From an uncultured Lachnospiraceae bacterium (GTDB lineage Bacteria > Bacillota > Clostridia > Lachnospirales > Lachnospiraceae), in contig CADCII010000044.1 in the NCBI GenBank assembly GCA_902801515.1, positions 1-34,065 of the forward strand: a stretch of 34,065 bases of DNA. The letters are read 5' to 3'. The notes beneath the pieces are model-generated. The model did no database searches. It was given only the letters and a program-made list of their open reading frames with translations, and had not been told where the DNA came from. A program made the position numbers and the translations under genes. Below are positions 5,819 through 20,125 of this stretch, one piece after another (position 1 is the stretch's first letter; each line of letters starts with the position of its first letter).

Positions 5819-6229
5819 ATGAAGTCTTGTTTACTGATCGGTGTGAATCACCTTGGAACGCTGATTGCAAAAAAGATGATGGAGAGCGGATATGAAGTCA
5901 TGGCTGTAGACAATGATGAGGAGCGGATCAACATGATCCAGTCATATGTCACGGATGCCCTGATCGGGGACAGCACAAACGAGGAATTCCTGAAGTCTCT
6001 CGGAGTCAAAGAATATGACCTCTGCTTTGTGACAATCGCTTCCGACTTCCAGTATGCACTGATGACGATCTTTCTGCTGAAAGAGCTGGGCGCCGGCAGA
6101 GTCATCGGCCGTGCGAACGGTGAGATCCAGGAAAAACTGCTGTTCCGCAGCGGGGCGGATGAGGTTATCTATCCGGAGAAGCTGGCTGCAGAATGGGCAG
6201 CGGCAAGATATGGATGCACGGATGAATGA
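5819..6229 (+). CDS. ktrA: TrkA/KtrA-like RCK_N protein lacking RCK_C
   Basis: The 136-residue cytoplasmic protein is a Rossmann-type RCK_N domain: IGVNHLG (7-13) in place of the usual GxGxxG (the second Gly is Asn), then VDNDEE with the ribose-binding Asp at 31, DALIGDSTNEEFL and VIYPEKLAAEW. Family members bind nucleotide, form an octameric ring and gate the membrane subunit. Normal KtrA is about 220 residues and continues with an RCK_C domain, which in several Firmicutes binds c-di-AMP. Here the protein ends right after RCK_N, and no RCK_C-like sequence occurs in any frame before the next gene. A strong AAGGAGG precedes ATG 5819. It forms an operon with ktrB. Confidence 0.88.
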   Translation: MKSCLLIGVNHLGTLIAKKMMESGYEVMAVDNDEERINMIQSYVTDALIGDSTNEEFLKSLGVKEYDLCFVTIASDFQYALMTIFLLKELGAGRVIGRANGEIQEKLLFRSGADEVIYPEKLAAEWAAARYGCTDE

Positions 6230-6371
6230 TGCCCGGATGAGAGATGCATGAAAAGATTGAGATTCACGAAAAGCGAATGACAGTTCTGTGATAAATCTCC
6301 TGATATAGTGAACACATCAAAAAAAACAAACACCTTCCGAACAGGAAGAACTGAAAAAGGAGAAAATAAAA

Positions 6372-6641
6372 ATGATGAAAAGAACAGAACTTACAATGGA
6401 TTGCATGAATTACGTTAATGGCGGAAAAGACGTTCAGGTGAATAATAAGACTGTGCCGTATGCAAACCTGAGAAAAGCACCGGGCCTCAGCACCGAAGTC
6501 GAGATGAAGCTCGATAATGGAGACTGGGTAGGCACGACCGGCAAAACAGTAAAGAAAGATGGTTATACCTGGTATCAGGTGTATGTACTCGGCTGCGAGG
6601 ACTGCTTCGGCTGGATCGCCGGAAGCCTGATCGGATTCTGA
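6372..6641 (+). CDS. Small peptide: double-glycine leader plus SH3-like core
   Basis: The 89-residue product starts MMKRTELTMDCMNYVNGG. Counting back from the GG, hydrophobic residues sit at -4 (V), -7 (M) and -12 (L), the pattern recognised by C39 peptidase-ABC exporters of class II bacteriocins. The predicted mature part (71 residues) is a compact SH3b-like fold: ANLRKAPG, DNGDWVGTTG, GYTWYQV and GWIAGSLI are its usual strands, with two cysteines (75 and 78) near the end. There is no Sec signal. RBS AAGGAG lies 9 bases before the ATG. It is monocistronic, with a strong terminator at 6665. No exporter gene lies in the window. Bacteriocin, signal or wall-binding peptide are all open; the export route is inference. 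Confidence 0.75.
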   Translation: MMKRTELTMDCMNYVNGGKDVQVNNKTVPYANLRKAPGLSTEVEMKLDNGDWVGTTGKTVKKDGYTWYQVYVLGCEDCFGWIAGSLIGF

Positions 6642-6664
6642 TAACGAATAAATCACTTCGCGGT

Positions 6665-6700
6665 AAAGGGCATCAACCCCAAAAGGTTGGTGCCCTTTTT
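6665..6700 (+). terminator. Intrinsic terminator after the double-glycine peptide gene
   Basis: A 14-bp stem (AAAGGGCATCAACC with GGTTGGTGCCCTTT, one G-U pair) and loop CCAAAA are followed by TTTTT. The A-run on the far side lets it also serve the minus-strand XRE gene ending at 6731. Confidence 0.92.
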
Positions 6701-6730
6701 GATCTCAGCTTTTCATAATATACAAGTCGG

Positions 6731-7246
6731 TTACATAGGTCTGGATTTTCTGAGAAGTCTCAGCTTGTACTCACGGATTCTGGCAGCGTATCTGCTTGTA
6801 AATATCACGCCAAAAACGATCATGCCAAATGCGATACCCAGTCCCACGCCGGCAATGAAGTCATAGACGGGGGAACCGTCTTTTCCGGTGAAGTAGATGA
6901 TAAAGAATGTGACAAATCCGGCCAGCCCGGCTATAAACAGCCAGTGTATCCTCTTAAGTAGTCTTGCTTTCTCTTCGCTGCTGTAATCAGCTACCTGCAT
7001 TACAGTTTCTTTCAGTTCTTCGTTCATGTGCTCACTTTTCCTTTCTCCGTTCAATATCTCACGGAGGTCGACCGTATAAAGATCGGACAGTTCCATCAGA
7101 ATGTCCAGGTCAGGCATGTTGCTGCCGGTCTCCCAGCGTGAAACCGTTCTGCGGGAGACTCCCAGCTGCTCTGCCAGCTGTTCCTGTGTGAAGTTTTTTT
7201 CTTTGCGAAGTGTCTGAAGGAACGCTCCTATCTTTACAAGATCCAT
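6731..7246 (-). CDS. XRE-family regulator with membrane anchor
   Basis: The product is 171 residues. Residues 1-65 are a Cro/CI helix-turn-helix: FTQEQLAEQLGVSRRTVSRWE is the DNA-binding unit, followed by PDLDILMELSDLYTVDL. After a charged linker two membrane helices occur at about 104-123 and 130-152, and the protein ends in a basic tail. This HTH-plus-membrane layout is common in Firmicutes and often senses envelope or peptide stress. Transcription runs convergent to the double-glycine peptide gene. AAGGAGG lies 9 bases before the ATG. A short dyad GACAC-ACC-GTGTC in the upstream region could be its operator, but this is weak. Confidence 0.88.
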   Translation of the reverse strand: MDLVKIGAFLQTLRKEKNFTQEQLAEQLGVSRRTVSRWETGSNMPDLDILMELSDLYTVDLREILNGERKSEHMNEELKETVMQVADYSSEEKARLLKRIHWLFIAGLAGFVTFFIIYFTGKDGSPVYDFIAGVGLGIAFGMIVFGVIFTSRYAARIREYKLRLLRKSRPM

Positions 7247-8377: not shown

Positions 8378-9112
8378 TTATTCTTCGCCTGAATCGATCG
8401 CATAGCAAACTGTGACAGTTGCCGTAACCTCTGTAGTCCCGGCAGTAAAGTCCAGCCCGCTGCCGGCCTCGGCAGCTTCATCAAACTGCGCCATCATATA
8501 ATTCCCGGCGACGTTTTTTTCAGCGGATCTGAGGGAATCGTTCTGATATCCTTCTGTGACAGTAAAACGTTCCGTCACCCTGGCTCCTTCTGCCGCCGCA
8601 AGTGTCTCCGCTTTCTGTCTTGCCTGCTGCATCGCTTTTCCAAGCGCTTCATTGTAAGCTTCATCATATCCGGAATAGAAGACGCTGATGCCGTCAATCT
8701 GGTTTACGCCGTTTGCCGAAAGGACCTGCAGGTATCTCCCTATATCATCGGTGCTGATCTCTTTTATTGACATGGCAACCTGTCCCCGGTATCCCACAGC
8801 TTTCTCTTCACCCGAGGAGTAATCATAGTTCGTGTACAGCTGTACACCTTCCGTCTTGCACTGTTCTTCCGGAAGCCCTTCTTCAAGAAGAGCCTCTTTG
8901 ACTGTATTTGCTTTTTCCGTTATGGACTTCTGGACGTCAGCAGCTTCCTTCCCTTCTTCAGTTATCGCAAATGAAATCGTCCCAAGATCCGGCGTTACGG
9001 TCACTCTGCCATTCCCCTGAACCGTGACAGACGGCACGATCTCCTCCGCCCCGGCTACTGCCGGACAGCCAAGCGCAAGTACCAGTGCTGCAGTTATAAT
9101 CCATTTTCTCAT
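8378..9112 (-). CDS. Secreted SIMPL (DUF541) domain protein
   Basis: The 244-residue product has a signal peptide (MRKWIITAALVLALG, cleavage likely after AGA near residue 22). The rest is the SIMPL fold: PSVTVQGNGRVTVTPDLGTI at the start, the TEGVQLY strand, the YRGQVAMSIKE strand, NQIDGISVF, and the helix with AMQQARQKAETLA. Members are periplasmic or extracellular and are linked to oxidative stress or signalling, without a known reaction. It lies 13 bases downstream of rrf2 on the same strand and 9 bases upstream of the DUF4037 gene, so it should share the autoregulated rrf2 promoter. Confidence 0.9.
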   Translation of the reverse strand: MRKWIITAALVLALGCPAVAGAEEIVPSVTVQGNGRVTVTPDLGTISFAITEEGKEAADVQKSITEKANTVKEALLEEGLPEEQCKTEGVQLYTNYDYSSGEEKAVGYRGQVAMSIKEISTDDIGRYLQVLSANGVNQIDGISVFYSGYDEAYNEALGKAMQQARQKAETLAAAEGARVTERFTVTEGYQNDSLRSAEKNVAGNYMMAQFDEAAEAGSGLDFTAGTTEVTATVTVCYAIDSGEE

Positions 9113-18971: not shown

Positions 18972-20060
18972 TTAGTAAACGGTCAGGTGCTTATTTCCTT
19001 CATTGACCTGGAAGTCAGTATCAGAATGCCTGATATAGGCGGTTCCTTCACTGTCATACCAGTATCCGTCCGTTGATTCATAGAGTGTCACAGCCGTTCC
19101 GTTTTCATCATAAGCCGTTACTACGCCGGGGTCCTGAGAAGATCCGCCTGAAGCGGGATTGAAGGTGAATACCCTCTTCGTTCCTTCATAAACCTGGAAT
19201 TCAGTTTCTGAAAGTCTGGTGTATGCCGTGCCTGCTTTGTCACGCCACAGACCATCCGTGCACTCATAAAGTGTCGATGACTCTCCGTTTTCATCGTAGA
19301 CCGTCTTCACATTTCCGGTGTAACTGGGTCCTACAGGATCCTTCTTCTCAGGCTCAGTGTCTGAAAGGAAATTAGCCGAAACATATCCGGTGCCGTTTCC
19401 GTAAGAAACCTGATACCAGCCGTAATCCGCTCCATTTCTCTGCACAACGCCGGTCACATGGACTGACTCTCCATATCCGAGAGTACCGAGGATCTGGTCA
19501 TCTGTGGAATAGCCTGCCCGGACATTAAGTCCGCTGGCAGTGACATACATTGTCTTATCCGTCGGAACTACCGAGAACTCGCTGGTGGATGCCTGATCTT
19601 CCTTGCTGACAGCAAGTTTCGTATCATATTTAAGCACTTTGGCTGACATGATAATATTGGCTACTTCGCCAATCTTATCAGAGTCCACAACACCACCCGT
19701 GATAACAAAGACCTCATTCTGTGTAGAAGCAACTGCCTGGTAGACTCTTACATAGTGATCATCTGCCACAGCCATTTCCGGAAGTTTCTCACCGTTGGAA
19801 TAATGTTCGATCGTGACGATATCATCACCGTCGCTGAGAACGACCCATTTAGACGGATCTTCCACTTCTTTCCATGTATCGTTCGGCAATACTACGGAAA
19901 GCACACCATCCGATGTTGTAAATGTACTCGATGTATCCGTTGTTTCTGCTGCTGCTGTTGTTTCCAGTGTTTCCTGAGTTTCCTGTGTTTCCGCTACAGC
20001 CGGTACTGACATGGAGGCTGCAAGCGCCAGCGCTAAAGCTGCGATAACTGTTTTTTTCAT
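18972..20060 (-). CDS. Secreted SH3-domain protein with two C-terminal repeats
   Basis: The 362-residue product has a signal peptide (MKKTVIAALALALAASMSVPAVA), then a Thr/Glu-rich segment (TQETQETLETTAAAETT). A globular region follows (SDGVLSVVLPNDTWKEV ... VITGGVVDSDKIGE), then one bacterial SH3b domain (VTASGLNVRAGYSTDD ... WYQVSYGNGTGYVSANFL). Two homologous 50-residue repeats close the protein, each with YDENG, LYE(C/S)TDG, W, GTAY and DFQV/EFQV. SH3b domains usually bind cell-wall peptides. No catalytic domain is seen, so it is probably an envelope-associated adaptor or sensor. The start at 20060 is chosen for the signal peptide; GGAG lies 5 bases upstream. It is probably monocistronic, ending at the terminator at 18919. 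Confidence 0.87.
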   Translation of the reverse strand: MKKTVIAALALALAASMSVPAVAETQETQETLETTAAAETTDTSSTFTTSDGVLSVVLPNDTWKEVEDPSKWVVLSDGDDIVTIEHYSNGEKLPEMAVADDHYVRVYQAVASTQNEVFVITGGVVDSDKIGEVANIIMSAKVLKYDTKLAVSKEDQASTSEFSVVPTDKTMYVTASGLNVRAGYSTDDQILGTLGYGESVHVTGVVQRNGADYGWYQVSYGNGTGYVSANFLSDTEPEKKDPVGPSYTGNVKTVYDENGESSTLYECTDGLWRDKAGTAYTRLSETEFQVYEGTKRVFTFNPASGGSSQDPGVVTAYDENGTAVTLYESTDGYWYDSEGTAYIRHSDTDFQVNEGNKHLTVY

Positions 20061-20125
20061 TTTTCTCCATTTCCTTTCTGTATATAGATATGAAGAGTCA
20101 GAAGGATTCACAAAGTTTCCTTTTC

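Follow-up and report, generated by a model that had tools for sequence, protein, structure and literature searches.

The window analyzed here, 34,065 nucleotides long, is the entire contig C44 of an uncultured Lachnospiraceae genome of 3.08 Mb in 94 contigs (genome code G000). On its forward strand lies a short gene, here called GG-SH3, whose product joins a double-glycine (GG) leader to a single SH3-like domain (Table 1).

Table 1. The GG-SH3 gene of the window, its parts, and its flanking signals
Feature	Position	Strand	Details and basis
GG-SH3 gene with stop codon	6372..6641	+	89 aa; ORF call, Pfam, homologues
Ribosome-binding site AAAGGAG	6356..6362	+	9 bases 5' of ATG; read in sequence
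Double-glycine leader	6372..6425	+	18 aa (Leu-12, Met-7, Val-4, Gly-2, Gly-1); leader alignments
Predicted mature protein	6426..6638	+	71 aa, single SH3_3-type domain; Pfam, AlphaFold2, Foldseek
Intrinsic terminator, hairpin and U run	6660..6705	+	-23.7 kcal/mol, z = -4.53

The original prediction had credited the gene with expression signals of its own. The ribosome-binding site is present, and the terminator stands on its hairpin energy, with 0 of 200 shuffled sequences equally low, but the hairpin is absent from the list given by a simple scan for terminators. A simple scan of positions 6150 to 6800 found no sigma-70-like promoter. The gene is adjoined by an XRE regulator (HTH_3 match in Pfam, membrane part judged by eye), and the gene upstream is one that we take to be TrkA-like. 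Both were considered as parts of a system and dropped, as neither stands beside the related genes in the ten loci read; the regulator singled out by the original prediction is a genuine neighbor of the window gene. A plasmid-borne origin was likewise rejected (a plasmid search gave one weak SH3 match only, in Nostoc), as were a phage origin (best PHROGs E value of 0.09 for the window protein) and a defense gene (PADLOC gave none). Rfam had no matches within the window, and the window protein was without a match in NCBIfam at E ≤ 1.

Leader and mature part of the window protein

Residues 1 to 18 (MMKRTELTMDCMNYVNGG) had been read as a leader of the C39-peptidase type, and this reading holds: the double glycine follows hydrophobic residues at -4, -7, and -12, the arrangement by which double-glycine substrates, with leaders ending in GG or else in GA or GS, are recognized, while position -8 is Cys, where Glu is usual. 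A search for the leader pattern in all six frames of the window gave this one match only, which, together with the conservation across relatives described below, argues that the leader is more than a chance resemblance. The leader code was established by experiment for LahT (PMC6363468, in excerpt) and is the same in PCAT1, with a substrate of 24 + 66 residues; specificity is set by position -4, where Val contacts Ile137 of LahT (both PMC6959990, in excerpt). A similar motif before the GG occurs in class II bacteriocins and in Nif11-type and NHLP precursors (PMC2887384, in excerpt).

The proposal that the remaining 71 residues are SH3-like is borne out mainly by the structure model. Residues 31 to 86 match Pfam SH3_3 (PF08239) at 20.1 bits, under the 27-bit cut-off; in alignment A1, made of 12 proteins of type A, all 12 members match SH3_3 at E ≤ 0.1, and two of them scanned singly exceed the cut-off (35.0 and 31.7 bits). 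The AlphaFold2 model of the window protein, built with A1, has 10-residue block means of 85 to 96 from residue 21 on and below 50 at residues 1 to 8 and 10 to 16, and Foldseek places bacterial SH3 domains at the top of its matches (2krs, E = 4.4e-3; 2kt8, E = 1.2e-2; probability 1.00). On this modeling, the mature part is predicted to adopt the SH3 beta-barrel fold. The closely spaced Cys75 and Cys78, to which attention had been drawn, are indeed present, but the pair is confined to the window protein among 30 tabulated genes and was dropped as a family hallmark.

A second type of GG-SH3 protein, type B, is tied to SH3 more indirectly. Its AlphaFold2 model has a mean pLDDT of 79 and no clear structural match by Foldseek (best E = 0.18), and Pfam scans of six B proteins gave sub-cut-off matches to SH3_3 for four, a match to SH3_2 only for another (E = 0.07), and nothing at E ≤ 1 for the sixth. 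The link comes mainly through a protein with a Sec-type start from the window's genome (G000:C1), which matches SH3_3 at 56.3 bits in two stretches; matches between its second domain and type B reach 2e-16. The proteins from G010 and G018 have no Pfam match at E ≤ 1 and are linked to type B by BLASTP only, G018 being tied to G000:C51 (51% identity) and G010 to G018 (42%).

Distribution of the family and its leaders

In all, we count 35 GG-SH3 genes in 14 genomes. Thirty were tabulated, 26 of them complete and 4 cut by contig ends, and five were added (G122:C94, G010:C11, G010:C26, G018:C38, and G018:C19), the last two encoding an identical protein; the counts omit a partial match at G122:C75. 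A search of the genome for paralogues sharing the leader had been suggested, and two more genes with the same leader type are found there, at C51 and at C26:24859 (B-type). A protein search of 60 relatives (E ≤ 0.01) matched 12: in 9 genomes, all from the same genus, the homologue is short, and in the other 3 the matching frames are long. A public goat-ileum contig (L003, genome G437) carries two A-type genes. The A-type profile led to type B within the genus (G000:C51, G009:C27, G009:C97, and G006:C389). In a profile search of 397 family genomes, the matches listed include a B gene in G267 and, in G122, which is of another genus, many copies of types A and B. Near-identical copies in G122 lie on contigs C36, C74, C76, C88, C90, C92, C93, C94, and C13, several of them at contig ends; some may therefore be assembly duplicates, and repeats may break the assembly. 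At class level, an A1 search (E ≤ 1e-9) returned only the window's own genome among 391. For seven close homologue pairs that leave out the window gene, dN/dS is about 0.06 to 0.26; the window gene itself has no close relative among the homologues found.

Several matches were excluded as GG proteins: those in G180 and G169 by their Sec-type starts, those in the public relatives L004 and L005 as long proteins, and the order-level A3 matches in G722, G661, and G720 as multi-repeat proteins with Sec-type starts (these three were read, among matches that lie also in G304, G705, and G370). No partner gene is common to all of ten A-type neighborhoods; three A-type loci (in G002, G008, and G016) have a local gene order in common.

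The architecture of the precursor is conserved. Among the 24 distinct leaders obtained from the 30 tabulated genes, in which leader length ranges from 15 to 19 residues, the GG is kept in all 24, as it is throughout A1. Position -4 fits in 24/24 (V in 17, I in 2, and A in 5), -12 is L, I, or M in 24/24, and -7 is L, M, or F in 23/24, the exception being a leader one residue shorter. Glu occupies -8 in 17 of the 24, and Cys at this position is unique to the window protein. Homologues without the GG or the hydrophobic positions had been named in advance as evidence against a leader of this type; apart from the one shortened leader, the homologues keep both.

The same leader stands before mature parts of very different sequence. 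On G122:C76, two neighboring genes have leaders alike in 17 of 18 residues and mature parts alike in 15 of 63 aligned residues. A profile built from leaders only, with matches counted outside the rows used to build it, finds G000:C51 (E = 8e-8), G000:C26 (E = 0.01), and new members in G010 and G018, and also two cargoes that are not SH3 by eye (G122:C1:113702 and G010:C13). A tree of 49 SH3 domains (71 columns, 25 open forks, and an unsettled bootstrap; the row for G010:C11 has its leader clipped at the start, with the mature part unaffected) places type A in one group (89/86) and sets type B apart, along with repeats from long proteins, by a branch with good support (100/98). Its SEC group comprises 27 rows, with N termini read for G000:C1, G000:C15, G722, G661, and a further protein of the window (positions 18972 to 20111, minus strand). 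Given the starred branches, there must have been two or more changes between the GG rows and the others, of undefined direction and among forks that are mostly weak. The further window protein has an SH3_3 domain at 47.3 bits, over the Pfam cut-off, and a start that looks Sec-type by eye; to judge from these sequences, the window's genome seems to export SH3 domains via two routes, Sec and C39.

C39 exporters in the carrier genomes

A whole-genome search found two C39 proteins in the window's genome, on contigs C9 and C2 and none on C44, in line with the original view that the exporter must be encoded outside the window. Both exceed the TIGR03796 cut-off, and each has an ABC2 partner (against TIGR03797, with a cut-off of 709.4, the C9 partner scores 711 bits and the C2 partner 695, just under). 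The exporters are preceded by short HlyD-like proteins, which at 39.3 and 23.2 bits fall far short of the 156.2 required. The closest PDB entry to the C9 peptidase domain is LahT (6mpz, E = 2.2e-60), and the domain keeps Cys27, His101, and Asp117, with Val in place of Ile137, the residue meeting -4.

Lying beside its exporter is usual, though not strictly defining, for a double-glycine substrate, and the window gene does not. A C39 match is found on the same contig for only 1 of 35 GG-SH3 genes, and the other 34 lie apart, on contigs some of which are short; for type A, a contig is shared in 0 of 12 genomes, again with some contigs short. The one exception is G009:C97. There, 425 bp separate the end of a B-type gene from the convergent end of an exporter operon that has an orthologue in the window's genome, and the C39 domain encoded in this operon shares 83% identity with that of C9. 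Precursors and substrates distant from their export genes have been described (PMC2887384, in excerpt). Two GG-leader proteins with mature parts of 66 to 76 residues and no Pfam match are of a different kind. One, on G122:C1 (L137, positions 8500 to 8781, plus strand), ends 127 bp before the HlyD-ABC1-ABC2 genes of an NHLM exporter operon, and the other, on G267:C115 (L097, 6543 to 6250, minus strand), has 40% identity to it over 93 aligned columns and adjoins a B gene.

All 14 genomes with a GG-SH3 gene encode a C39 exporter, whose absence from carrier genomes would have spoken against the original prediction; the background is a C39 match over the cut-off in 149 of 397 family genomes (157 at E ≤ 0.001). 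Within the genus, C39 occurs in 16 of 19 genomes, and the gene is present in 11 of the 16 with C39 and 0 of the 3 without, a hypergeometric probability of 0.058 that ignores relatedness and is only suggestive of an association; the five C39 genomes without the gene (G003, G007, G011, G013, and G015) were searched with the A1 profile rather than the leader profile. The three gene-bearing genomes outside the genus also have C39. G017 has no C39 match and one long-leader GG gene, and since its assembly is in 690 contigs, the absence of an exporter is uncertain.

Other GG-leader candidates came to light on contigs of these genomes. Just before a C39 exporter in G003 (L160, contig C19, position 8910, plus strand), a GG leader precedes a 48-residue mature part that resembles a single C2H2 zinc finger by eye (FCNYCGV...MKAHQIAAHG), which would be a strange thing for a bacteriocin exporter to carry. 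On C39 contigs of G014 and G002 there are two GG-leader genes (L142 2715, minus strand, and L144 10855, plus strand) that are almost the same and encode a core of 50 residues rich in Cys and Gly. In the window's genome, a 102-aa ORF near the second C39 exporter (L049, G000:C2, 15714 to 16022, minus strand) reads ISEELVDLVIGG and then a 26-residue basic tail; it has no NCBIfam match and is a candidate long-leader precursor. An ORF of 59 codons on G000:C56 (L188, 2449 to 2627, minus strand) begins like a leader (MTTEELENVTAG), its core is non-SH3 by eye, and it could encode a class II-like peptide.

Possible roles and relation to known systems

Our preferred reading, to which we assign a probability of about 0.65, is that GG-SH3 is a C39-exported, leader-cleaved single SH3 domain that acts at the wall, probably without killing. 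In this scheme, a precursor of 18 + 71 residues would be made, its leader would be recognized by the C39 peptidase domain at the N terminus of the NHLM-type ABC exporter encoded on C9 or C2, and after a cut behind the Gly-Gly, the SH3 domain would leave the cell and fold outside. Cleavage and export are predicted by analogy with the published LahT and PCAT1 experiments, and we regard export by a C39 transporter as highly likely. Once outside, the single domain would most likely bind to the envelope of the producing cell or of cells nearby, with peptidoglycan, a wall polymer, or a wall protein as its target. SH3_3 domains occur in secreted wall proteins and lysins, and it is on account of this family membership that we conjecture wall binding; that such binding proceeds without killing is in our estimate an even call. 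That no immunity-like neighbor was seen among ORFs of at least 60 aa in ten loci, the several copies in some genomes, and the lack of a catalytic part suggest a binder rather than a killer. We speculate that the protein serves at the wall as a modulator, adhesin, or shield, which seems more likely than a self-lethal bacteriocin.

It could instead be a class II-like bacteriocin. The exported SH3 domain would then attach to competitors' walls and be lethal or inhibitory to those cells, and the producer would be immune through a gene located elsewhere or through the chemistry of its own wall. Class II bacteriocins have this leader type and this exporter family, weak matches to Pfam Bacteriocin_IIc occur in 4 of 12 A-type members (best E = 0.01), and an arms race would fit with the large number of diverged copies in G122. 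We nevertheless find this unlikely: the genes are single and at differing places, no conserved immunity candidate appears among neighboring ORFs of at least 60 aa in ten loci, and in lysins the SH3b part is the binding module, killing being the work of a distinct catalytic domain. Another thought is a secreted protein of the matrix or biofilm, similar to the EbfG proteins of Synechococcus, for non-bacteriocin cargoes of the C39 route do exist, given that efficient secretion of EbfG1-4 depends on the PteB peptidase (PMC4997328, in excerpt); with no observation here pointing to a matrix role, it seems quite improbable. That the leader is a mere look-alike on a cytoplasmic, SH3-fold adaptor would fit with the 34 of 35 genes on contigs without a C39 match, yet several observations make it very improbable. 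The invariant GG and the fit of the hydrophobic positions to the C39 code speak against it, and the leader is common to SH3 domains of different branches and found also on cargoes seemingly unrelated to SH3 (L222 and L210, by eye). AlphaFold2 confidence is low over most of the leader, and related domains in the same genome occur in proteins with Sec-type starts.

A C39-exported wall binder would be a substrate of a familiar kind with an unfamiliar cargo, and we classify GG-SH3 as a variant within double-glycine export. Class II bacteriocin precursors (PF10439, TIGR01847) have a comparable short leader with the -12/-7/-4/GG pattern, and C39 export of GG-SH3 is predicted in their likeness. Their mature part is a short amphipathic or hydrophobic peptide, whereas that of GG-SH3 is an SH3-type beta domain of about 70 to 82 residues; GG-SH3 also differs in that no immunity gene was seen among ORFs of at least 60 aa, its genes lie apart from exporters, and it falls short of the curated cut-offs. 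The Lah cluster of Lachnospiraceae bacterium C6A11 (6mpz; NHLM families TIGR03796/TIGR03797) is related through its peptidase LahT, nearest to that of C9, and through matching leader positions. Its cargoes are lanthipeptide precursors with Nif11-type leaders, encoded in the exporter's own cluster (PMC6363468, in excerpt), in contrast to the short leader, SH3 domain, and unlinked gene of GG-SH3. NHLP and Nif11 precursors (TIGR03793, TIGR03798) have leaders averaging 83 and 70 residues (PMC2887384, in excerpt), against 15 to 19 in GG-SH3. EbfG1-4 of Synechococcus elongatus are small GG-motif proteins that use the C39 exporter PteB, require its peptidase cysteine for efficient secretion, and are needed for biofilm (PMC4997328, in excerpt). 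They are cyanobacterial with a demonstrated role, where that of GG-SH3 is conjectural, and the abstract of that paper names no SH3 domain. Finally, the SH3_3 wall proteins and lysin SH3b domains (2krs, 2kt8, 4krt, and 5leo) share the fold of the window protein by Foldseek at modest E values; theirs are domains within larger proteins, while the mature GG-SH3 product is one domain with a GG leader in front.

An SH3 domain behind a double-glycine leader is undescribed in titles and abstract openings among the literature matches listed, a scope outside which most subscription journals lie. Three papers with both terms have SH3 and GG leader on separate proteins in the portions available (PMC9610097, PMC5167698, and PMC2828477); in excerpts of their main texts, PMC3482391 has the SH3 term only and PMC13289728 no SH3. 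The PCAT1 cargo is unstructured within the transporter (PMC6959990, in excerpt), and early folding of a domain could therefore block its passage. If the SH3 domain is exported as proposed, this raises the question of whether it crosses the exporter unfolded or folded within the cavity, and the GG-SH3 family would offer ready substrates for a LahT-type peptidase.

As a broader and more tentative proposal, bacteriocin exporters might offer a second route by which entire wall-binding domains are secreted, with a leader module joined more than once to different SH3 lineages, the same genome exporting related SH3 domains by Sec and by C39, and a multi-copy, diversifying set of single domains labeling, protecting, or competing at walls. 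Double-glycine leaders are usually taken as the mark of a bacteriocin or signaling peptide. A leader carrying a complete wall-type domain would, if true, widen the known cargo range of C39 exporters, and a class of secreted proteins would then be overlooked as well as wrongly labeled in searches for bacteriocins.
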